A stretch of 37,082 bases of DNA from Zetaproteobacteria bacterium. Lineage in GTDB: Bacteria > Pseudomonadota > Zetaproteobacteria > Mariprofundales > Mariprofundaceae. Under the pieces are notes generated by a model. That model saw only the letters and a list, made by a program, of their open reading frames with translations, was not told the origin of the DNA and ran no database searches. Shown here one piece after another: positions 11,171-36,838 of the stretch (its first letter is position 1; every line of letters begins with the position of its first letter). The stretch lies in NCBI GenBank assembly GCA_003696795.1, contig RFFT01000017.1, positions 1 through 37,082 of the forward strand, read 5' to 3'. A program made the translations under genes and the position numbers.

Positions 11171-12571
11171 TCAATCGGTGCACGCATCGAGTGCATCGAG
11201 TAATCGCTGATGAATGCCATCGAAGCCGCCGTTGGAGAGAATCAGCACATCGTCACCCGCACATGCCTCGGCGCAAATCGCCTCGATCACCGCATGGCTA
11301 TCGCTGCAAACATGCGCATGCTCGCCAATCCGGCGGCACACCCGCGCGACATCCAGCAGCTGATCAGGGGATAGCCCCCGTGCGGCAGGCGGTACGATCA
11401 GGACACGGTCGGCCGCCTCCAAACTCGCCGGAAGCGCGTCCTGATGAACCCGCGTACGCATGGTGTTCGAGCGCGGCTCAACAACCACCCAAAGTCTTCC
11501 CCGCCCCCCGTTTGCCACGCGAGCCGCCTCAACCACGCCGCGAATCGCGGTGGGGTGATGTGCGAAATCATCGAAGACGCGCACGCCGCGCGCCTCGCCG
11601 ACGAGACTCATGCGTCGCTTGACGCCCGCGAAGCTTGCCAGCCCGCGCGCGATTTCCTCATAGCTCAACCCCAACGCGTGCACAGCCGCCGCGGCCGCCG
11701 CCGCATTCGCGACATGATGCACGCCAAGCATCGGCCAACGGACACGGATCGCTTCCTTCCCCTGATGATACAGGCGGAACGCGCTGCCATCGGCATGTTC
11801 GGGTCGCCACTGCCAGGGCGCATCCCGCCCGCCATGGCGCGCAAACCCGATCACCGGACTCCAGCAACCGCGACGCAAGACGTCACCAATCTCGGCATCG
11901 TCAAGGTTGACCACGACCCGACCGTTGCCCGGCACCGTGCGCAACAAAAAGTGGAATTGCTGCTTGATCGCCTCCAGATCGGGAAAAATGTCGGCATGGT
12001 CGAATTCGAGATTGTTCAGAATCAGGGTGCGCGCATGGTAGTGTAAGAACTTGCTCCTCTTGTCGAAAAACGCGGTGTCGTATTCGTCGCCTTCGAGCAC
12101 GAAGGTCTCCCCCTCGCCCAGGCGCGCGCCGGCCGCAAAATTGTTCGGCAGGCCACCGATCATGAAGCCGGGCGAGCGACCAGCGCGTTCAAGCAGCCAG
12201 GCCACGAGACTGGACGTCGTGGTCTTGCCATGCGTGCCAGCCACCACCACTGCATGCCTACCCGGCAAAACATGGTCACCGATGAACTGCGCGCCCGAAG
12301 TATAACGAAGTCCACGTGCAAGCACGGCTTCCACTTCGGCATTCCCGCGCGACAAGGCATTGCCGATCACCACCAAGTCCACATCCTGGTCGAGATTGGC
12401 TGCAGAATAGGGTTGCACCGGAATGCCCAGGTTGCGCAGATAATCCGACATCGGAGGATAAACATGCGCATCGGAGCCGGTGATATGCCAGCCCAATTGC
12501 CGCGCGAGTGTGGCTACCGCTGCCATTGCGGTACCGCAAACACCAAGGATATGCAAACGCCGGCGCGCCAT
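11171..12571 (-). CDS. mpl: UDP-N-acetylmuramate:L-Ala-gamma-D-Glu-meso-DAP ligase
   Basis: 466 residues, a Mur ligase fold with an N-terminal Rossmann domain (LHILGVCGTAMAAVA) and the ATP-binding loop GTHGKTTTSS at 112-120. Mpl attaches the recycled tripeptide from murein turnover directly to UDP-MurNAc. It is separated from MurC by the GGLPNNFAAGARLG segment and by EGDEYDTAFFDKRSKFLHY, both typical of Mpl. ATG 12571 is preceded by AAAGGGG; the in-frame ATG 12586 falls before this SD and overlaps the glmM end. Next to glmM and a lytic transglycosylase, it fits a peptidoglycan supply-and-recycling block. Confidence 0.95.
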   Translation of the reverse strand: MARRRLHILGVCGTAMAAVATLARQLGWHITGSDAHVYPPMSDYLRNLGIPVQPYSAANLDQDVDLVVIGNALSRGNAEVEAVLARGLRYTSGAQFIGDHVLPGRHAVVVAGTHGKTTTSSLVAWLLERAGRSPGFMIGGLPNNFAAGARLGEGETFVLEGDEYDTAFFDKRSKFLHYHARTLILNNLEFDHADIFPDLEAIKQQFHFLLRTVPGNGRVVVNLDDAEIGDVLRRGCWSPVIGFARHGGRDAPWQWRPEHADGSAFRLYHQGKEAIRVRWPMLGVHHVANAAAAAAAVHALGLSYEEIARGLASFAGVKRRMSLVGEARGVRVFDDFAHHPTAIRGVVEAARVANGGRGRLWVVVEPRSNTMRTRVHQDALPASLEAADRVLIVPPAARGLSPDQLLDVARVCRRIGEHAHVCSDSHAVIEAICAEACAGDDVLILSNGGFDGIHQRLLDALDACTD

Positions 12572-12582
12572 GCTCGCCCCTT

Positions 12583-13935
12583 TCAAGCGTGCTGCTCCAC
12601 CACTTCTCCGATCCCCTCATAGAGCATATCCCCGACCTGGCGCATCAGTGTTTCCTGCTCCGCCTCAACCATGATGCGCAACTTCGGTTCCGTCCCGGAC
12701 ATGCGTACATTGAGCCGCCCCTTGCCAGCCAATAGCTGTTCCGCCTCGCGGATCAGCGCCTGTACCCGCTCATGGCTCAACACGTCCCAGCGATGCGGCA
12801 AACGCACATTCCACATATGCTGGGGAAACAGCTCCAGATCCGCAGCCAATTCATGCACGGGCTTCTCCATATCCGCCATGGCGCACAGCAGTTGCAACGC
12901 GGTGAGCAGACCATCACCGGTGGTGTTGTAATCGAGCAAAATCATATGCCCCGATTGTTCCCCACCAATATTGCAGCCATGCCGGCGCATCATCTCCAGC
13001 ACATATCGATCGCCCACATCGGCGCGCAACATACCCAAGCCGCGCGCTTGCAAGAAGCGTTCCAAACCCATATTGCTCATCGTGGTGGTCACCACCGCCC
13101 CGCCGGCAAGCCTGTTTTCCGTCCTCGCATGCTCGGCGAGAATGGCAATGATCCGATCACCATCGATGATCCTGCCGGAGGCATCGCAAACGATGAGCCG
13201 ATCCGCATCGCCATCCAGCGCGAAACCGATATCGCTGCCGGTTTCGACCACCGTGCGCGCCATCGACTCCGGCGCGGTCGAACCGCATTCCGCATTGATG
13301 TTCAGCCCATCCGGCTCGTCATGAATCGACGTCACCTGGCAACCCAGCTCGATGAACAAGCGGGCAGCCACGCCATATGCGGCCCCATTGGCGCTGTCCA
13401 CCACTACCTTCAAGCCATCGAAACGCATGCCGCGCGGCAGCGACGCCTTGAGAAATTCGATATACCGCCCCTTCGCATCATCGATGCGCTTGGCCCGCCC
13501 GATCTTCAACGCCGGCGGCAGTGCCGGCGGTTGATCCAGCAGACGCTCGATCTCCAATTCCACCTCGTCCGGCAGCTTGAAACCGTCAGCGGCAAAGAAC
13601 TTGATGCCGTTGTCGCCAGCCGGATTATGGGATGCGGACAACACCACCCCGGCATCCGCGCGCAGACTTCGTGTTAAATAAGCCACCGCGGGCGTGGGCA
13701 CGGGGCCGACCAGCAACACATTCATTCCCTGCGCGGTCAATCCAGCGCAAAGCGCGGACTCGATCATATAGCCAGAGAGTCGAGTGTCCTTGCCAATCAA
13801 AATACTGGGTGTGTGCGCAACATGGCGTGTCAGCACATGCCCCGCCGCACGGCCCAAGGCCAAGGCGAATTCAGCGGTCATCGGCGGCTCATTCACCGTA
13901 CCGCGCACCCCATCGGTACCAAAGTATTTACGCAT
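12583..13935 (-). CDS. glmM: phosphoglucosamine mutase
   Basis: 450 residues from the second of two adjacent ATGs; GGAGG lies 4 bp before 13935 but only 1 bp before 13938. The active-site Ser102 in LSASHNP coincides with the E. coli numbering. The metal-binding ALDGDADR loop, the GEQSGH sugar-binding loop and the C-terminal RMSGTEPKLRI phosphate-binding loop are intact. GlmM converts glucosamine-6-P to glucosamine-1-P for UDP-GlcNAc synthesis. Gammaproteobacteria often have ftsH-folP-glmM; here cdaA and cdaR are inserted between folP and glmM. In Firmicutes, GlmM binds and inhibits CdaA, so the arrangement is functionally suggestive. Confidence 0.96.
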   Translation of the reverse strand: MRKYFGTDGVRGTVNEPPMTAEFALALGRAAGHVLTRHVAHTPSILIGKDTRLSGYMIESALCAGLTAQGMNVLLVGPVPTPAVAYLTRSLRADAGVVLSASHNPAGDNGIKFFAADGFKLPDEVELEIERLLDQPPALPPALKIGRAKRIDDAKGRYIEFLKASLPRGMRFDGLKVVVDSANGAAYGVAARLFIELGCQVTSIHDEPDGLNINAECGSTAPESMARTVVETGSDIGFALDGDADRLIVCDASGRIIDGDRIIAILAEHARTENRLAGGAVVTTTMSNMGLERFLQARGLGMLRADVGDRYVLEMMRRHGCNIGGEQSGHMILLDYNTTGDGLLTALQLLCAMADMEKPVHELAADLELFPQHMWNVRLPHRWDVLSHERVQALIREAEQLLAGKGRLNVRMSGTEPKLRIMVEAEQETLMRQVGDMLYEGIGEVVEQHA

Positions 13936-14621
13936 CATTCCTCCTTTTGTCGCGTAGACGCCGGCAAGGCCACACGCGCCAATGTTCCACGAACGGTCAA
14001 TGTCGCGCCTGGATCGACCAGACGAATTCCTTGCCCGGATGGCGTGGCCACGGTCACCTTCGCCACGAACGGCCCAACCTTGTGACGCGGACGCACCGGA
14101 TTGCTTCGCACTGCGGGCAGCGAGCCGAGCCAGACTTCCGGTCCGGTCAAGGCAATCTTCTCGGGTGTCACGGACACATCGCGCGCTTGCCAGCCGGCCG
14201 GCAATTCGATCACGGGACGCACCGGAACCTTACGCCGGATCTTTCGGTCCACCTGCAGCTCGAGCGTATCGGGCCTGATCTTCTCCACCTTAAGCCCGGG
14301 CGGCACATGAATGGCGGACAGCGACAGCGCGCGGCGCACCACTCCCGGCGAGGTGATATCCGCCACATCCAGCGGGATAAACAGACCGCGCGCCCGCACC
14401 TCCTGCAGCCTGCTCTGCAATCCGCTGAGCGTAATGCGCACGCGATCGGGCAAATCGTTCACGATCATCATCCCCACCGGCAGTCCCTGCACCTGAAGTG
14501 GTGCCTCGATGGTGAGCGACCCTTGCCCCTCGCCATGCACATACATCCAGAGCCCGATGGCCACAAGCAAAGAGAGCAGATGCAGCCGGAAGCGATCCAG
14601 CAAACGGAATGCGCGCCTCAT
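13935..14621 (-). CDS. cdaR: YbbR-domain membrane protein (CdaR)
   Basis: 228 residues: an N-terminal transmembrane anchor (about 12-29, LHLLSLLVAIGLWMYVHGE) followed by two YbbR-like beta-rich repeats. These are about 35-115 and 120-215, with segments such as IEAPLQVQGLPVGMMIVNDLP and RKVPVRPVIELPAGW. YbbR/CdaR proteins are extracytoplasmic partners that modulate the diadenylate cyclase CdaA. Gram-positive CdaR usually has three or four repeats, so this one is short. It overlaps cdaA by 4 bp (ATGA 14618-14621) and glmM by one to four bases, so the three genes are very likely translationally coupled. Confidence 0.88.
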   Translation of the reverse strand: MRRAFRLLDRFRLHLLSLLVAIGLWMYVHGEGQGSLTIEAPLQVQGLPVGMMIVNDLPDRVRITLSGLQSRLQEVRARGLFIPLDVADITSPGVVRRALSLSAIHVPPGLKVEKIRPDTLELQVDRKIRRKVPVRPVIELPAGWQARDVSVTPEKIALTGPEVWLGSLPAVRSNPVRPRHKVGPFVAKVTVATPSGQGIRLVDPGATLTVRGTLARVALPASTRQKEE

Positions 14622-15430
14622 TTGCCTGCCTCTTGGCCCTTTCCGCGGACCATCGTAATCACCGTATGATGGTCAATATCGGGCTGAAAGCATTGCATCA
14701 AGCGACGGTGCAGCTCCAGCCCATCCAAGGGGCCCTCGATATGTCCCTCGCGCACCAGATGAATATCCCGTCGTTCCTCGGAAACCACGATCACCAACGC
14801 ATCGGCTTCCTCACTCAGGCCGATCGCGGCGCGATGGCGCGTACCCAGCGCGCCCGGCACATCTTTGGCCTGCGCCAGGGGAAGAAGCACGCGCGCGGCC
14901 CGTATGCGCCCCCCTTGCTCCGTCTGGCGCACAATGATGGCGCCATCATGCATCGGTGCCTGAGGACAGAACAAGGCCAGCACCAGGTCCGGCGACAATG
15001 GTGTATCCAGCTCCACACCGGTTTCATACAGGTGGCGCAGTCCGGTTTCCCGCTCAACCACGATCAATCCTCCCCACCCTCGCTCCACCAAGGCAACGGC
15101 GGACTCCATCAGCATATGGGCCAGCGACCTGGCCGCATCCTCGCTGGCCACCAGCGGGTTAAACGCCACACGCACCAAAGCCCGACGAATTTCATGTTGG
15201 AACAACACCACAAGAATCACGATGAAGGCGGAAAAGAAATGACCAAAAATCCACTCAACGGTAAACAGGCCAAAGTGGCGAGCAAGGAAATAGACCGCCA
15301 CCACGATGCCCAGCCCCATCAGCATCTGCATGGCCCGCGTGCCACGAATCATGCGCAGCAGAAAATAGACGACGACAGCCACGCACAGGATATCGATCGC
15401 ATCCCGAAGGCCAAAGGACCAACTGTTCAT
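14618..15430 (-). CDS. cdaA: membrane diadenylate cyclase (CdaA/DacA)
   Basis: 270 residues: three N-terminal TM helices (about 10-26, 33-50 and 57-77) and a DAC (DisA_N) domain from about 95 to 250. The catalytic motifs are intact: MHDGAIIV with Asp162-Gly163-Ala164, and GTRHRAAIGLSEE with Thr197-Arg198-His199-Arg200. The enzyme condenses two ATP to cyclic di-AMP, a messenger that governs potassium and osmolyte transport and wall homeostasis in Gram-positives. The SD before ATG 15430 is weak. A TGA lies in frame a few codons upstream, so the start is constrained. It lies 69 bp after folP. No c-di-AMP phosphodiesterase is present in the window. Confidence 0.93.
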   Translation of the reverse strand: MNSWSFGLRDAIDILCVAVVVYFLLRMIRGTRAMQMLMGLGIVVAVYFLARHFGLFTVEWIFGHFFSAFIVILVVLFQHEIRRALVRVAFNPLVASEDAARSLAHMLMESAVALVERGWGGLIVVERETGLRHLYETGVELDTPLSPDLVLALFCPQAPMHDGAIIVRQTEQGGRIRAARVLLPLAQAKDVPGALGTRHRAAIGLSEEADALVIVVSEERRDIHLVREGHIEGPLDGLELHRRLMQCFQPDIDHHTVITMVRGKGQEAGK

Positions 15431-15499: not shown

Positions 15500-16345
15500 C
15501 TAGCCTTTGGGTTGCAAGCGATGATCCGCCAACGCGGCGGCCACTCTGGCCGCCCGTCGCTGCAAAGCCACATCATGCACGCGCAAGCCATCCGCGCCGT
15601 CGAACACCCCAATACCGCCCGCCACCGCCGTTTCCAACTCGCGATCATGCACCTCGGCACCGGTCAGCGCATGGATGAACGATTTGCGCGAAACTCCAAG
15701 CAGGACGGGCATTTCAAAGCGGGACCTGAAGTAGCCAAGGTTGGCTATCAAGCAAAGATTGTCTTCGAGCCTTTTGCCAAAACCAATACCGGGATCAAGC
15801 AGAATCGCGCTCGGCTCCATCCCTGCCGCCAGACAGGCATCGATACGCTGCGCAAAGAAGGATGCGACTTCGCCAAGTACGTCATCATAGTGCGGCGCGC
15901 GCTGCATCGTTCGTGGCGTGCCCTGCATATGCATCAGGCAGACATCCACCCCGGCATCCGCAACGACGGCAAGACTCGCCGCATCGAAACGAAGGGCCGA
16001 AACATCGTTAATCATACATGCCCCGGCCTCAATGGCCCTGGCCATCACCTCCGCCTTCATTGTATCCACCGACACCCTGCAACCATGCGCCACCAGTGCG
16101 CGCACAACGGGCAGTACGCGACGCAACTCGTCCTCCACGGGCACAGGTTCCGCCCCCGGCCGCGTGGATTCACCGCCGACATCAATAATCTCCGCGCCCT
16201 GCTCCCACATCGCCAAGCCATGGGCGATGGCGCGATCGACATCAAAATAGTTGCCCCCGTCGGAAAACGAATCGGGCGTGCAATTCAGCACGCCCATGAT
16301 CCATGCGGGACTACCGGCCTTGCGCCACCAGCGAGAGCGGGTCAT
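15500..16345 (-). CDS. folP: dihydropteroate synthase
   Basis: 281 residues, the same size as E. coli FolP. It condenses p-aminobenzoate with the pyrophosphorylated pterin made by FolK. The pterin loop MGVLNCTPDSFSDGG lies at 17-31, then EIIDVGGESTRPGAEPV, the DPGIGFGK phosphate/pterin motif, and the C-terminal GVSRKSFIHALTG and RVHDV elements. ATG 16345 starts 2 bp after the ftsH stop and gives the expected N-terminus. The frame is open to 16528, but that would overlap ftsH. The only nearby SD-like sequence is weak, suggesting coupling to ftsH translation. The ftsH-folP order is conserved in proteobacteria. Confidence 0.95.
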   Translation of the reverse strand: MTRSRWWRKAGSPAWIMGVLNCTPDSFSDGGNYFDVDRAIAHGLAMWEQGAEIIDVGGESTRPGAEPVPVEDELRRVLPVVRALVAHGCRVSVDTMKAEVMARAIEAGACMINDVSALRFDAASLAVVADAGVDVCLMHMQGTPRTMQRAPHYDDVLGEVASFFAQRIDACLAAGMEPSAILLDPGIGFGKRLEDNLCLIANLGYFRSRFEMPVLLGVSRKSFIHALTGAEVHDRELETAVAGGIGVFDGADGLRVHDVALQRRAARVAAALADHRLQPKG

Positions 16346-16346
16346 C

Positions 16347-18272
16347 TCAGCGCGGCTGTTCGGCCTCTTGGCCTGCGCCACCGCCCTTGACTCCTTCTTC
16401 GGCCACATCAATGGCCTCTTCCTCCTCGTCCGTGCCGCTGGCAGGCGAGGCTGTCGCCTTGGGCTCTTCCCGTTGCAATTCCTTTCCGGCCATGACCAAG
16501 TCGATTTCGTCGCCCTCCAGCGTCTCATACTTGATCAACGCTTTGGCGATATTATGCAACTGATCCATGTGGTCGAGCAGAATCTGCCGTGCACGGGCAT
16601 AGTTCTCCTCGATCAGCTTGCGCACCTCGGCATCGATCTTGCGCGCCGTCTCTTCCGAAATATTGGTCTGCCGGGTGATTTCACGGCCAAGAAACGGCTC
16701 GTGCTCGCGCTCACCATAGACCATCGGCCCCAACGCATCGCTCATCCCCCATTGGGTGACCATATTACGCGCCAATTGGGTCGCACGTTCAAAATCGTTG
16801 GACGCGCCGGTTGTCATCTGGCCCAACACGAGCTCCTCGCCAAGCCGTCCGCCCATCATGATCGCGATCTGGTCGCGCAGATACTCGCGGTCATGGTTGA
16901 AGCGATCCTCCTCGGGCAACTGCATCGTCACGCCGAGCGCCTGGCCGCGCGGAATTATGCTGACCTTGTGCACCGGATCCGCGTGTTTCAGATGCTTGGC
17001 CACCAAGGTATGGCCCGCCTCATGATAGGCCGTCGTCTCTTTCTGTTCATCGGACAGCAACATCGAGCGACGCTCTGTACCCATCATGACCTTATCCTTG
17101 GCCGCCTCGAAATCCGCATTGGTGACCTTGTCCCGATCAAACCGAGCCGCATTCAGTGCGGCTTCATTGACCAGATTGGCCAAGTCGGCCCCGGAAAAGC
17201 CCGGTGTTCCGCGCGCCAACTTCTTCACGTCCACATCGGGAGCCAATGGCACTTTGCGCATATGCACCTTCAGGATCTGCTCCCGCCCCAACAAATCCGG
17301 ACGCGGCACAACCACCTGACGATCGAAACGACCGGGGCGCAACAACGCCGGGTCCAACACATCCGGACGATTGGTCGCCGCCACAATGATCACACCCTCA
17401 TTCGCCTCGAACCCATCCATTTCCACCAGCATCTGGTTCAGGGTCTGTTCACGCTCGTCGTTGCCTCCGCCAATGCCCGCGCCACGATGTCGACCCATCG
17501 CATCGATCTCATCGATGAACACGATACACGGCGCGTTCTTCTTGGCCTGCTCGAACATATCGCGCACGCGAGACGCACCGACACCGACAAACATCTCGAC
17601 AAAATCCGAACCGGAAATGGAGAAGAAAGGCACATCAGCCTCGCCGGCGATCGCGCGCGCCAGCAGCGTCTTGCCCGTTCCCGGTGGTCCCACCAGCAGC
17701 ATACCCTTGGGAATCTTGCCGCCCAAACGGGTGAACTTGGACGGGTCACGCAGAAACTCGATCACCTCGGTGACCTCCTGCTTGGCCTCGTCGCAACCGG
17801 CCACATCGTCGAAGGTCACCTTCTGGGTATTTTCGGTCAGCAACTTCGCCCGGCTCTTGCCGAACGACATCGCGCCACCTTTGCCTCCACCCTGCATCTG
17901 GCGCATGAAGAATACCCATACGGCGATCAACAGCAGCATCGGGAACCAGGAGATCAGCACCGACACAAAGAACGGTACATGATCGGGCTCCTTCACATTG
18001 ACGATGACGTGCTGGTCCAGCAAGCGCCTGGTCAGCGAAGGATCGTCGGGCACCAACACCTCGTAGCTTTTCAGCTCGCCCTGCATATCGCGATACTGGC
18101 CCACAACGTGGTTTTCCTTGATCGTCGCCGTCTCCACAAGGCCCTTGTCCACCTTCTCCATGAAGGCGGAATAGGACATTTTCTCTCCCCCCTGCATTGG
18201 CGTGGAAAACATGTTGAATACGCTCATCATGGTCACGCCGATGACCAACCAAAGCAACACATTACGACCCAT
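16347..18272 (-). CDS. ftsH: ATP-dependent zinc metalloprotease FtsH
   Basis: 641 residues. Two TM helices (about 5-20 and 102-122) flank a periplasmic domain. An AAA+ module follows, with Walker A GPPGTGKT at 195-202, Walker B VFIDEID and an SRH region ending in RPGRFDR. The M41 protease domain has HEAGH at 417-421. The pore motif MFVG is present. The C-terminus is Glu- and Ala-rich, as usual. FtsH degrades membrane and regulatory proteins such as LpxC. The SD is modest (GGGGTTTTTC before ATG 18272). The gene heads the run ftsH-folP-cdaA-cdaR-glmM-mpl-proS-transglycosylase. The rlmE gene often found upstream is absent here; tilS precedes it instead. Confidence 0.97.
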
Positions 18273-18353: not shown

Positions 18354-19322
18354 TCAGCGAAGCATCACCTGCCTGCTTCGTAGATGCAAGTAGCTCTTTT
18401 CCCTTTGCACACGACAACGGGAAAGGTCGAGCCCACCGTTCCCGCCCCGCAACGTCCATGCCTCAACCAGCTCGATATGGCGCCTGCCGGCACACGTGCC
18501 CGCGCCGAACAGACAGGTCAACATGCGCTGCAGCAATACCGCCCGTTCCGCGGCCAACAAGCGCCGCCAACTGTCCCAGGCGACACGCACCCCCTCACCC
18601 GTCTCCTCCAGCGCCACCTCCCGAACGCGCGAGCCAAGCTCCTCCGCAACGCGCAACGCCTGCCGCTGCAGACGCGTAAACAGCGCATGCGGCTCAACAC
18701 CAGCCCGCCGCATCGCAGGGAACAAGCGATGCCGAATGCGATTGCGCCACAAGGTACAGTCGTTGTTGGTCTCGTCCTCAATCCAGTCGACGTGCGCCTG
18801 GCGCAATAGCCGCCGCAAATAGCCGGGGGCGACCTGCAACCAAGGACGGTGCAACAACAAGCCTTCGCGCGAAGCGCTCACCGCCATGCCGCAACACCCC
18901 TGGACACCTGCCCCCTGCAATAAACGCATGCACACCGTTTCCGCCTGATCGCCGACATGATGCGCAAGATACACATGACGAACCTGCTGCTCGCGCGCCC
19001 AGCGCGCGAACTGCGCATAACGCTGTTGCCTGGCCGCAGCCTCTCGATTGCGCGCGGCGGCGGGCACCCGTGCGACATGGAAGGCGACTCCCCATTCCTG
19101 CGCACGCCGCGCCAACCATTGCGCCTGGCGATGGCTTTCCGGTCGCCAACCATGATCGATATGCCAGGCAACGAGCCGGTCGACCCGTGCGCGCAACGCC
19201 AGCAACAACGCGGTCGAGTCCGCGCCCCCCGACCAGGCCACCGCCACCTTTTCGCGTTCGCCTTCCAATCGCTCGGGCAGCAAAGCCGTAAGCTTGCTCA
19301 GCGCGTCTTCGCGCTCGCTCAT
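18354..19322 (-). CDS. tilS: tRNA(Ile)-lysidine synthase
   Basis: 322 residues. The PP-loop SGGADS at 31-36 and the downstream AHHVGDQAETVCMRLLQGAG are signatures of TilS, which converts C34 of the CAU-anticodon tRNAIle2 to lysidine. The N-terminal ATP-pyrophosphatase domain is followed by a middle substrate-binding domain. The C-terminal region is shorter than in E. coli TilS (432), so it is likely missing part of the last domain. ATG 19322 is chosen because AAAGGAGAG precedes it; a longer frame to 19367 overlaps the divergent promoter region. It lies 81 bp upstream of ftsH on the same strand and is divergent from znuA. Confidence 0.92.
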   Translation of the reverse strand: MSEREDALSKLTALLPERLEGEREKVAVAWSGGADSTALLLALRARVDRLVAWHIDHGWRPESHRQAQWLARRAQEWGVAFHVARVPAAARNREAAARQQRYAQFARWAREQQVRHVYLAHHVGDQAETVCMRLLQGAGVQGCCGMAVSASREGLLLHRPWLQVAPGYLRRLLRQAHVDWIEDETNNDCTLWRNRIRHRLFPAMRRAGVEPHALFTRLQRQALRVAEELGSRVREVALEETGEGVRVAWDSWRRLLAAERAVLLQRMLTCLFGAGTCAGRRHIELVEAWTLRGGNGGLDLSRCRVQREKSYLHLRSRQVMLR

Positions 19323-19373
19323 ATCGCCATCTCTCCTTTGGTCATCCGCGCTGTGAGCGGCTAGCATGCCGGC

Positions 19374-21800: not shown

Positions 21801-23516
21801 TCAATGCGCATCGGATACCCCGGCGACAGCCCAGTCGCCACATGCATTTGCCACCCCATAAGCCAGCGCATCCGGCTGCAGACGGGCCGCCATCCACCCC
21901 ACACTTTGGCGACCGCAAAACAGCAAATTCATATTCGGTTGCAGGGGTAAGGAAGGTCCAGGCAACACCCACTCCCGCCCATCGAGTTCCGCCAGCAATA
22001 CGATATGCGGCAAGGGCTCATCGGGATGCCAGGGGTCGCGCAGCAGATGCCCCATGCGTAGTTCCTTCCCCTCGCGCAACATGGTGGCAACGGCAGGCAT
22101 GTCGCCATCGTCCAGGCGCACCTGCCATGTTTCAAACGTTTCAGCCGCTGTCTTCGCGGCGATGCGCTTCATCAGCCGCTCCACAGTGCGCTCCGACAGT
22201 CGCTCGATGCCGTCCGCGAAATCATGCAGCAAAGGCGTGGCGATCCACGAATGCGCGTTGCGGGCCACCAGATGGTTGCATTGCATCACCATGTCCGGCG
22301 CGGCCGCCTCGAACAGCGCGCCATTGGCGCGCTGTACCTGGCGAACGATGGTGAAGATGTCCGGGTTCAGCCGCCGCGCCGCCATGATAATCGAAAGGTT
22401 GTCCATGTCGTCGTCGGTGGCGGCGATAATACCTCCCGCCCGTTCGATGCCGGCCTCGCGCAGATGTCCCTCCTCAATACCGCGGCCGATGATGGCCCCG
22501 TCCGGAAGCGGGTTGATTTCGGGATGCGCATCCACAACCGAAAAGCGCACACCAATCTCGCTCAACCGGGCATGAATCGTCTGCCCCAAACGACCAAACC
22601 CGCACAGCACCCAGGGCCTGTCGGCCAAGCCGGCAAGGCGTTCGGCCAGTGACTCGGGATCGTTCCCTTCCATCAGGCGCGTCCGAAAGCGGAAATGCGC
22701 CGGCATGGTCATCGCCTCGGCGATGTCCTCGGCGAAGGTGGCGAAGGGATTGACGACATGATGCACGCCGAATGCGCGCATATTGCGCTCGGTCTCGGGA
22801 TATTCCGCGCGGGCGATGACCGCGATGTCCGGATGCAGCAGGCGCGCCGTCATCGCAATCTTCTGGTTGGCCTGATCGTCGTTGGTGATGGCCGCTACAG
22901 CCCGACACATCGGATGTCGGAGCCCTGCTTTAATGAGATGCTCCGTTTCCGCCGCATCCGCACCCAGGCTTGGCACATACAGGTTCAGATCTTCCATCAC
23001 CAGTTCGTTGATGACCTCCTGGTCGATATCGATTACCACGCACTGACGATACTCCTTGGCCATGCGATGAACCAGTAGGTGTCCTGTCGCTCCGTAGCCG
23101 CACACCAAGCAAAAAGGCTCGCTCAAGTTGCGCACATGGCGGGCGAAAGCCGCATGAAACAAGGTGCGCTTGAAGGCCGGGTCCTGCATCAGGTTCAGAA
23201 TCGAACCAAAGGCATACAACCAACCGACCACGGTCGGATAGATGCATAAAGTAACCCAGAAACGCTGCTCAGGCGTAAACGCGTGCGGGATCTCGCCAAA
23301 ACCGATGGTGGTGGTCATAAAGCTGACGAAATAAAACGCCTCGAAGAAACTCATATGGTAGGGATGACCCTGTTCGTCCACACCTGGTATCAGCACCATG
23401 CCCAGCACCGAAATGGAAGTGATAACGATCATCACAATCAACGGCGCGCGCATCCGTCGCAGGACGAGAAACACCACATGATCGCCGGGATTGGGCACCA
23501 AATGCGGCAAAGGCAT
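21801..23516 (-). CDS. two-TM potassium-channel-like protein with two RCK domains
   Basis: 571 residues. Two N-terminal TM helices (about 26-45 and 84-105) flank a pore loop with TTTIGFGE at 68-75, a variant of the usual TVGYG filter. Two Rossmann RCK/TrkA_N domains follow. The first (about 125-245) begins LVCGYGATGHLLVHRM with the acidic VVIDID end. The second (about 300-415) begins WVLCGFGRLGQTIHARL. The last 150 residues have no motif I recognise. It probably gates potassium in response to NAD(H) or another nucleotide. ATG 23516 has AGGGGG upstream. It follows the small membrane-protein gene by 10 bp. Confidence 0.88.
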   Translation of the reverse strand: MPLPHLVPNPGDHVVFLVLRRMRAPLIVMIVITSISVLGMVLIPGVDEQGHPYHMSFFEAFYFVSFMTTTIGFGEIPHAFTPEQRFWVTLCIYPTVVGWLYAFGSILNLMQDPAFKRTLFHAAFARHVRNLSEPFCLVCGYGATGHLLVHRMAKEYRQCVVIDIDQEVINELVMEDLNLYVPSLGADAAETEHLIKAGLRHPMCRAVAAITNDDQANQKIAMTARLLHPDIAVIARAEYPETERNMRAFGVHHVVNPFATFAEDIAEAMTMPAHFRFRTRLMEGNDPESLAERLAGLADRPWVLCGFGRLGQTIHARLSEIGVRFSVVDAHPEINPLPDGAIIGRGIEEGHLREAGIERAGGIIAATDDDMDNLSIIMAARRLNPDIFTIVRQVQRANGALFEAAAPDMVMQCNHLVARNAHSWIATPLLHDFADGIERLSERTVERLMKRIAAKTAAETFETWQVRLDDGDMPAVATMLREGKELRMGHLLRDPWHPDEPLPHIVLLAELDGREWVLPGPSLPLQPNMNLLFCGRQSVGWMAARLQPDALAYGVANACGDWAVAGVSDAH

Positions 23517-23526
23517 GGCGGACCCC

Positions 23527-23904
23527 CTATCGCCTGATGGTGCTCGCCTCAATTACCATCAGGGTCACAGAAACGATGTTCGCGCTCAATGCCCCGCCGG
23601 CCAAGGACACCTCCAGTGGGGTCCAGGCCGCGGGATTCCCCGCCACATGCGTCGCATAACCCATCACCGCAGCCGCTCCCAGCAGACCGACATCCGCCAC
23701 CAAGCTACTGGCCAACAGCAGAGAACCGATATGCGACCGTTCACCAAACTTGAGTACTGTGGCAATGAGATTGATGACCACGGCGCCGAACAGCTCATAT
23801 ACGCTGTGGTGCGCGGGATTGTCCATATCGCCGACGAAGAAACCGTAGTTCAATGACATGGCAAGCAACACGAAGAACGCGAAAAAAACCCGTTGCAGAT
23901 TCAT
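23527..23904 (-). CDS. small membrane protein, DUF6394-like
   Basis: 125 residues with an excellent SD (GGAGGAGGGG) before ATG 23904. Four predicted hydrophobic segments are visible: VFFAFFVLLAMSLNYGFFVG (about 5-24), VVINLIATVLKFG, LLLASSLVADVGLLGAAAVMG and a C-terminal ANIVSVTLMVIEAS. The opening MNLQRVFFAFF and the VYELFGAVVINLIATVLK stretch resemble a small proteobacterial family (DUF6394 by memory) that sits beside two-TM RCK channels. It may be an accessory subunit. No catalytic residues are seen. Confidence 0.72.
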   Translation of the reverse strand: MNLQRVFFAFFVLLAMSLNYGFFVGDMDNPAHHSVYELFGAVVINLIATVLKFGERSHIGSLLLASSLVADVGLLGAAAVMGYATHVAGNPAAWTPLEVSLAGGALSANIVSVTLMVIEASTIRR

Positions 23905-24008
23905 TGCCCCTCCTCCAGTCCCACACCCGGTCAGGACCATTGCGGAGATTATGATACGTCAGACGACTTGCCGCAATGGACCTCGATGGCAATCCACGGG
24001 AATACCTC

Positions 24009-27689: not shown

Positions 27690-28205
27690 TCAATGCGCCT
27701 TATGCGAAAAGTAAGTCGCCAGGCTGACGAGCAGAATCCCGCCGCCCATGAACAGCGCATTCATCGGCTCGTCAAACGTCACATGCAGTACATTCTTGAA
27801 AAAGGCCACAACCAGGATCATCAACACGACCTTGACCAAGCGATCCTTGAGATCATCGAGGTTTTTAATCATCAGAATCTGGCTCGCGGCCTTGTCCCCT
27901 TGCGCGACATCGATCTTACTGATAAACAGCTCATACAACCCGAGCGAGAAGATCAGCAATACGGTTGCAAGCAGAAAATCATCGATGGCGGAGATGATCG
28001 TTCCCACCGCATCGGCATGGAACTCCGTCGAGATCGCTTCATGGCCCGTGACCACCTGGAAGAACTCGACCGCAAGATGCCACATGCTTTCCGCCGCCAG
28101 AAAAAACAATATCAGCATCCCCAACATCGAGGCCAACACGGCAAGCAGCACCACAAACCGGCTGTTCCACAGGAAAGACTCGAAAACCCGCTCAATGAAA
28201 TTCAT
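27690..28205 (-). CDS. UPF0114/YqhA-family inner membrane protein
   Basis: 171 residues with three TM-rich regions: RFVVLLAVLASMLGMLILFFLA, AIDDFLLATVLLIFSLGLYELFI and VKVVLMILVVAFF. The signature FISKID and the NFIERVFESFLW opening match YqhA (UPF0114). The function of this family is not established. GGAGGAG precedes ATG 28205. The neighbouring ion-channel gene and codirectional yciO suggest a membrane or ion context only. Confidence 0.88.
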   Translation of the reverse strand: MNFIERVFESFLWNSRFVVLLAVLASMLGMLILFFLAAESMWHLAVEFFQVVTGHEAISTEFHADAVGTIISAIDDFLLATVLLIFSLGLYELFISKIDVAQGDKAASQILMIKNLDDLKDRLVKVVLMILVVAFFKNVLHVTFDEPMNALFMGGGILLVSLATYFSHKAH

Positions 28206-28265
28206 TTCGGAGCTCCTCCATCGCCGCACCAGGCGCGCGAATTAACGCAGTTGGTCCAGAAATCG

Positions 28266-35650: not shown

Positions 35651-36838
35651 TCAACCGCGTGCGCGAGGCATAAAACGCAGCAGCGCATAACCCATGCCCC
35701 CGGAGAGCAACGAAGCGCATAGAATAGCCAGCTTGTCCGTGTACTGAAACAAATCGTCGCGAGCAAAGGCCAACGAGGTGATGAACAGGCTCATCGTGAA
35801 GCCGATGCCGGTAAGCACCGATACCCCGTAAAACTGAATCCAATCGCTGCCCGCGGGCAACCGCGCCCACCCCAAGCGAATCGCCATAAAACCGAAGCCG
35901 AAAACGCCAAGCTGCTTGCCTAGAAACAGAGCAACAAGAATCCCCATGGGCACCGGCTGCATCAGCTGCGAGAAGGAGAAACCGGAAAGATTCACCCCTG
36001 CATTTACAAACGCAAATAAAGGCAAGATCAAGTATGCGACCCAACCATGCAGATGGTGTTCGATCTCTCTCAACGGGGAACAGTCGCGACCGTCTTGATC
36101 CAGGCCACGCAATGGTACCGTAAACGCCAGCGCCACACCGGCCAATGTGGCATGCACGCCCGACTTAAGCACACTCAACCACAGCAAAATACCAACAAGG
36201 ACGTAGCCCGCCTTACGTATTACCCCAAGGCGGTTCATCACCACCAGCACCAGCAAGGCAACCCCGGCAGCCAGCAACGCCCAGCCTGACAATCGCGCTG
36301 CATAAAACAGCGCGATGATCAGGATCGCTCCCAGATCGTCGATAATTGCCAGGGCCATCAGAAACACCTTCAGGGAAAGCGGCACCCGACTTCCCAACAA
36401 GGCGAGAATCCCCAACGCGAACGCAATATCCGTAGCTGTGGGAATGGCCCAGCCCTGCAAGGCCAGCGAATCCCCCGCATTGAACAACACATAGATGAGA
36501 GCAGGCACGAGCATGCCACCCAGCGCCGCAATACCGGGCAATACCACCTGTCGCAGGGATGATAAGTGCCCTTCCAACAACTCCCGCTTCACCTCAAGCC
36601 CAACGAGGAAGAAAAACACAGCCATCAACCCGTCGTTCACCCAATGATAGAGCGAGTATTCAAGCTCCCAAGAACCCACACGCAGCGCGATGGGCGCATG
36701 CAAAAAGGCATGATAGCCGTGGGCCAGCATGGAATTGGCGCATAAAAGCGCAAACACGGTGGCGACGATCAGCATCAGCCCACCGGCAGCCTCTTTGTTT
36801 ATGAATTCATCAAACATGCCCGTTGCGTATTTCATCAC
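35651..36838 (-). CDS. nhaA: Na+/H+ antiporter NhaA
   Basis: 395 residues with about twelve TM helices. The essential Asp pair is present in LAIIDDLGAILIIALFY (E. coli Asp163/Asp164). The N-terminus EFINKEAAGGLMLIVATVFALLCANS and the motif PTATDIAFALGILALLG are diagnostic. It exchanges Na+ or Li+ for H+ at the inner membrane. ATG 36838 and 36835 are adjacent; AGGATTGAG precedes both. A structured leader of about 170 nt lies upstream (36839-37009). It ends 33 bp before the Gld-like ATPase gene. Confidence 0.95.
   Translation of the reverse strand: MMKYATGMFDEFINKEAAGGLMLIVATVFALLCANSMLAHGYHAFLHAPIALRVGSWELEYSLYHWVNDGLMAVFFFLVGLEVKRELLEGHLSSLRQVVLPGIAALGGMLVPALIYVLFNAGDSLALQGWAIPTATDIAFALGILALLGSRVPLSLKVFLMALAIIDDLGAILIIALFYAARLSGWALLAAGVALLVLVVMNRLGVIRKAGYVLVGILLWLSVLKSGVHATLAGVALAFTVPLRGLDQDGRDCSPLREIEHHLHGWVAYLILPLFAFVNAGVNLSGFSFSQLMQPVPMGILVALFLGKQLGVFGFGFMAIRLGWARLPAGSDWIQFYGVSVLTGIGFTMSLFITSLAFARDDLFQYTDKLAILCASLLSGGMGYALLRFMPRARG

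Follow-up and report, generated by a model that had tools for sequence, protein, structure and literature searches.

A probable class-wide cyclic di-AMP synthesis module in Zetaproteobacteria

The window analyzed here, a stretch of 37,082 nucleotides, is contig C83 of a zetaproteobacterial (Mariprofundaceae) MAG of 1.55 Mb and 97.5% completeness. It carries cdaA, a YbbR-domain gene and glmM, which are adjacent on the same strand and so form a cdaA-cdaR-glmM module. The relevant genes, in window coordinates, are as follows.

11171-12586, minus strand: mpl-like UDP-MurNAc peptide ligase gene, named from a reading of its sequence; 4-bp overlap with glmM
12583-13938, minus strand: glmM, phosphoglucosamine mutase, 451 aa; 4-bp overlap with cdaR
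13935-14621, minus strand: cdaR, YbbR-domain protein, 228 aa; 4-bp overlap with cdaA
14618-15430, minus strand: cdaA, membrane diadenylate cyclase, 270 aa, CdaA_N and DAC domains, intact DGA and RHR motifs
15500-16528, minus strand: folP, dihydropteroate synthase; open reading frame taken from its first start codon
16347-18272, minus strand: ftsH, membrane AAA protease, from domain and family profile matches
18354-19367, minus strand: tilS-like gene that opens the conserved gene order, named from its sequence and neighbors
21801-23552, minus strand: ion channel of 583 aa with two RCK_N (TrkA_N) domains; extent taken from the first start codon
27039-27686: second, voltage-type ion channel, from a profile match
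35651-36838: NhaA, from a profile match

An earlier note on this DNA had described the three module genes as intact and overlapping, and the present coordinates bear this out. The mpl-like gene probably belongs to one transcription unit with glmM, and the true start of folP probably lies near 16345. Both potassium-type channels named in that note, one with two RCK domains, were found together with NhaA; the two-RCK_N channel spans 21801-23552 here and 21801-23516 there. Directly upstream of it lies a gene for a DUF6394 protein (23527-23940, minus strand), and the two are probably transcribed as one unit. A UPF0114 membrane protein is encoded at 27690-28229 (minus strand), just upstream of the voltage-type channel.

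Domain searches support the reading that this proteobacterium carries an intact CdaA-CdaR-GlmM module. Against Pfam, CdaA scores 114.7 bits for the DAC domain (cut-off 27) and 40.4 bits for CdaA_N (cut-off 23.8), CdaR scores 34.9 bits for YbbR (cut-off 22.3), and GlmM gives a full four-domain match above the curated cut-offs, along with 590 bits for the NCBIfam GlmM model. The NCBIfam model TIGR00159 scores CdaA at 170.7 bits, which places it just outside NCBI's CdaA equivalog because the cut-off is 188.8, a naming threshold rather than a biological feature. The DGA and RHR motifs are invariant in all 55 aligned CdaA sequences, and residues 10-86 hold the hydrophobic segments expected of three transmembrane helices by simple hydropathy, in line with the earlier description of CdaA. 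Among solved structures, its best match is the diadenylate cyclase chain of 9g69 (292 aa, E 2.7e-40), an entry that also contains GlmM. The closest named relatives come from Mariprofundaceae and Zetaproteobacteria MAGs (76-78% identity) and from the isolate Mariprofundus micogutta (61%). One genome (G026) has a 605-aa cdaA frame that was considered as a fusion and rejected, only CdaA_N and DAC being detected; the extra length is probably open frame upstream of the start. The module is very probably able to make c-di-AMP.

DAC domains are found in 26 of the 29 sampled members of the order. An evenly sampled set of 398 Pseudomonadota genomes with a minimum completeness of 90% contains 42 genomes with DAC matches above 100 bits: 40 of the 42 members of the order, plus G029 and G189, so that strong matches outside the order amount to 2 of 356 genomes. 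Five further genomes show marginal matches of 22-29 bits. The two DAC-negative order members in this set, G027 and G156, lack a true glmM match as well, which indicates that the glmM locus is missing from their assemblies. In another order member, G025, the neighbors of glmM (L156:12576-13955) include none of cdaA, cdaR, folP and ftsH, possibly a real case of pathway loss within the class; with a completeness of 84% and a break in the infB contig, this MAG gives no basis for judging whether the DHH gene was lost too.

G189 is a reduced genome of another lineage (0.9 Mb, 100% complete) with no detectable glmM. It encodes a stand-alone DAC protein (132 bits, L161:6642-7400) with no cdaR beside it, as well as a DHH-DHHA1 protein. 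The DAC protein is probably an independent acquisition.

A 2023 review describes the c-di-AMP system as lacking in Alpha-, Beta- and Gammaproteobacteria and present in Deltaproteobacteria (PMC10745434). Among papers available without subscription, no report of c-di-AMP in Zetaproteobacteria was found, nor any paper pairing diadenylate cyclase with Mariprofundus; two papers mention c-di-AMP together with the class, one surveying cpdB genes and the other jumbo phages. The module is of an ordinary kind in an apparently undescribed place, and is class-wide and probably ancestral there. We consider it very likely that it is a vertically inherited c-di-AMP synthesis module and a trait of the class Zetaproteobacteria, with CdaR as its partner, a GlmM that may bind CdaA, turnover by a DHH-DHHA1 enzyme and the general role of c-di-AMP.

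Whether GlmM controls CdaA in these bacteria, as the earlier note had assumed from Firmicutes, can be gauged from the residues at the interface. In B. subtilis, R126 of CdaA contacts D151, E154 and D195 of GlmM (PMC8573169). Position 151 is arginine in all 49 readable GlmMs of the zetaproteobacterial and related loci and in E. coli, whereas B. subtilis has aspartate. Position 154 is aspartate in 49 of 49 readable sequences and position 195 glutamate in 48 of 48, the same chemistry as in E. coli. On the other side of the interface, Arg126 is present in the window CdaA and in 46 of 55 aligned sequences, with lysine in four. This numbering follows the B. subtilis CdaA sequence and agrees with the S. 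aureus alignment. Of the features of the B. subtilis mode, CdaA Arg126 and acidic GlmM residues at 154 and 195 are thus present and an acidic residue at 151 is absent.

The module could nonetheless work exactly as in Firmicutes, with GlmM blocking the head-to-head CdaA dimer and so coupling c-di-AMP to cell-wall precursors. The conserved neighborhood with its frequent 4-base overlaps, the retention of Arg126 or lysine in most CdaA sequences and the two preserved acidic contacts, Asp154 and Glu195, all fit such control. However, one of the three acidic contacts is arginine in every zetaproteobacterial GlmM read, and arginine at 151 in the E. coli and P. aeruginosa enzymes has been suggested as a possible reason for their failure to bind DacA of S. 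aureus (PMC8573169). Moreover, the contact chemistry is identical in GlmMs with a CdaA neighbor and in E. coli GlmM, which has none. We regard full conservation of the Firmicutes mode as plausible but somewhat less than probable. GlmM control of CdaA is doubtful on these residues, with a universal Arg151 set against a mostly kept Arg126. Compensation of Arg151 by CdaA Glu125 was considered and dropped, as the 9g69 pair has glutamate there together with Asp151. In the single genome G029 (L122), aspartate stands in for Arg126 of CdaA and arginine for Asp151 of GlmM, so that the charges may have been swapped. Zetaproteobacterial GlmMs, with an E. coli-like arginine beside a cognate CdaA, offer a natural test of which residue decides CdaA binding.

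Candidate outputs of the signal differ from those first proposed. c-di-AMP binds KtrA and CpaA in the RCK_C domain, and the ligand residues of KtrA have been described (PMC7288161). At E<=1, no RCK_C domain is seen in the two-RCK_N channel of the window, and the earlier note's suggestion that this channel is an output finds no support. The genome-wide search for RCK_C domains that the note had recommended did locate them on two other contigs, C29 and C62, in a double-RCK TrkA encoded beside trkH and in a CPA2 antiporter. TrkA shows no KtrA-type c-di-AMP ligand motif. The antiporter (RCK_N and RCK_C; L120:1106-3025, contig C62) has the motif DIRIPHGVQ in its RCK_C domain, with glutamine in place of Asn175, and the RIPHGVQP stretch, which falls at about the c-di-AMP site of KtrA, is near-invariant in aligned zetaproteobacterial CPA2 homologues. 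This antiporter is possibly a c-di-AMP receptor, a lead only. PstA is absent from the source genome, and no ydaO riboswitch was found in it or in 40 others under strict filters that may miss weak matches.

These observations allow a tentative variant of the vertical reading, to which we give rather less than even credence: an ancestral proteobacterial c-di-AMP system wired unlike that of Firmicutes, with no GlmM control of the known mode and with receptors other than PstA, ydaO and KtrA, possibly including CPA2. Such a system would imply that the ancestors of other proteobacterial classes lost cdaA-cdaR from between folP and glmM.

Turnover of the signal is likely provided by a DHH-DHHA1 protein. 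DHH domains occur at only two places in the source genome: in a frame of 585 aa, about as long as RecJ, and in a stand-alone protein of ~325 aa that combines DHH and DHHA1 domains with the DHH and GGGGH motifs, which is the architecture of DhhP/Pde2-type enzymes. TmPDE and Rv2837c are among its best solved matches (E about 1e-37 to 1e-39). The earlier note had called for a search for GdpP, PgpH or DhhP-type phosphodiesterases; this yielded the DhhP-type candidate, and no match to PgpH (7TM-7TMR_HD domain) in the source genome. For GdpP, a membrane PAS-GGDEF protein with a DHH domain, the DHH places to consider are the RecJ-sized frame and the stand-alone protein. The note had also held that the lack of any c-di-AMP phosphodiesterase in the genome would tell against the pathway. 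Here a candidate exists, and its presence follows that of CdaA: the DHH-DHHA1 profile is found in 44 of the 398 phylum genomes, namely all 42 DAC-positive genomes and two MAGs with a missing glmM locus, and in none of the remaining 354. The association of DAC with DHH-DHHA1 has a Fisher p of about 1e-54, a value that ignores relatedness, and since the pair occurs in three lineages, its weight is that of three lineages and not of 42 independent events.

The main substrate of this protein could instead be nanoRNA or pAp. As an NrnA-type nanoRNase or pAp phosphatase, it would be unrelated to c-di-AMP; its gene lies directly after nusA-ylxR-infB-rbfA, apart from the cda locus, and several of its solved relatives are named NrnA. 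However, nearly every member of the order also has oligoribonuclease, and the DHH-DHHA1 protein is therefore not needed as the sole nanoRNase. Its absence from every one of the 354 genomes without strong DAC outside the class also speaks against this reading. We consider this alternative improbable and, on domain architecture and phyletic pattern, retain the c-di-AMP phosphodiesterase as the likely identity.

Gene order bears on the ancestry of the module. Where the contig extends far enough, most loci show the order tilS-ftsH-folP-cdaA-cdaR-glmM, among them those of the isolate M. micogutta (L032) and of a one-contig genome (G012), and 4-base overlaps are frequent. The few loci in which folP was not found upstream within the stretch examined belong to family f3 and to two members of genus g10. 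Outside the class, G029 has ftsH-folP-cdaA-cdaR-glmM. Distances among CdaA sequences correlate with those of CdaR (r=0.92), FolP (r=0.87) and GlmM (0.66), and the observed value was not reached in any of 999 permutations. The E. coli locus reads ftsH-folP-glmM and has no cdaA-cdaR at that point. The earlier description of a gammaproteobacterial-type locus accordingly stands for the ftsH-folP-glmM order but not for the host genome, which is zetaproteobacterial.

The note had further called the module inserted. Recent horizontal acquisition, with cdaA-cdaR entering a proteobacterial locus between its folP and glmM genes, has in its favor that these two genes lie near each other without an intervening cdaA in E. 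coli and in two more of the sampled phylum members, ~1 kb apart in the latter. It is nevertheless very unlikely given that the order is class-wide and shared with G029, that CdaA divergence tracks FolP and CdaR, and that folP adjoins a diadenylate cyclase gene in most Spirochaetes except Leptospiraceae (PMC6335563), so that this pairing is not peculiar to Proteobacteria. Because ftsH-folP-cdaA-cdaR-glmM is found across the class and in G029, and E. coli has it minus the cda genes, loss of cda in other classes is the likelier account, suggesting a c-di-AMP pathway that was already there early in the phylum and was later lost.

For the vertically inherited module, we infer activities, partner contacts, receptors and physiology along the following lines. 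CdaA, held in the membrane by its three predicted helices, would join two ATP molecules into c-di-AMP, with CdaR as its putative extracytoplasmic regulatory partner. GlmM, predicted to share the transcript of CdaA, would provide the wall with glucosamine-1-phosphate, whether or not it binds CdaA. The stand-alone DHH-DHHA1 phosphodiesterase encoded after rbfA would remove c-di-AMP, pApA or both. The signal most likely serves its general function here, in which potassium, osmolyte and turgor state would be matched to wall synthesis. An intact synthase and a candidate phosphodiesterase are thus present class-wide in a phylum whose best-studied classes lack a c-di-AMP system (PMC10745434). Mariprofundus isolates exist, one of them among the matches, which makes the main claims testable.

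Compared with the cdaA-cdaR-glmM modules of Firmicutes (B. subtilis, L. monocytogenes and dacA of S. aureus), the zetaproteobacterial module has the same gene order, CdaA_N and DAC domains, motifs, YbbR partner and GlmM enzyme. Unlike them, it is embedded in tilS-ftsH-folP, its CdaR is short (228 aa), its GlmM has arginine for Asp151, its CdaA scores under the NCBI equivalog cut-off, and its source genome has neither a ydaO riboswitch nor PstA. The candidate phosphodiesterase resembles TmPDE (TM1595) and M. tuberculosis Rv2837c, both likewise stand-alone DHH-DHHA1 proteins with DHH and GGGGH motifs; the zetaproteobacterial gene, known here from sequence, differs in its place after rbfA, away from the cda locus. 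The E. coli ftsH-folP-glmM locus matches in neighbors and order but has no cdaA or cdaR between folP and glmM. Spirochaetes (PMC6335563) and Leptospira (PMC12974146) are likewise Gram-negative bacteria with CdaA encoded beside folP or cdaR; the Leptospira cdaA-cdaR operon is without glmM (PMC12974146), unlike the zetaproteobacterial locus, which joins all three genes.
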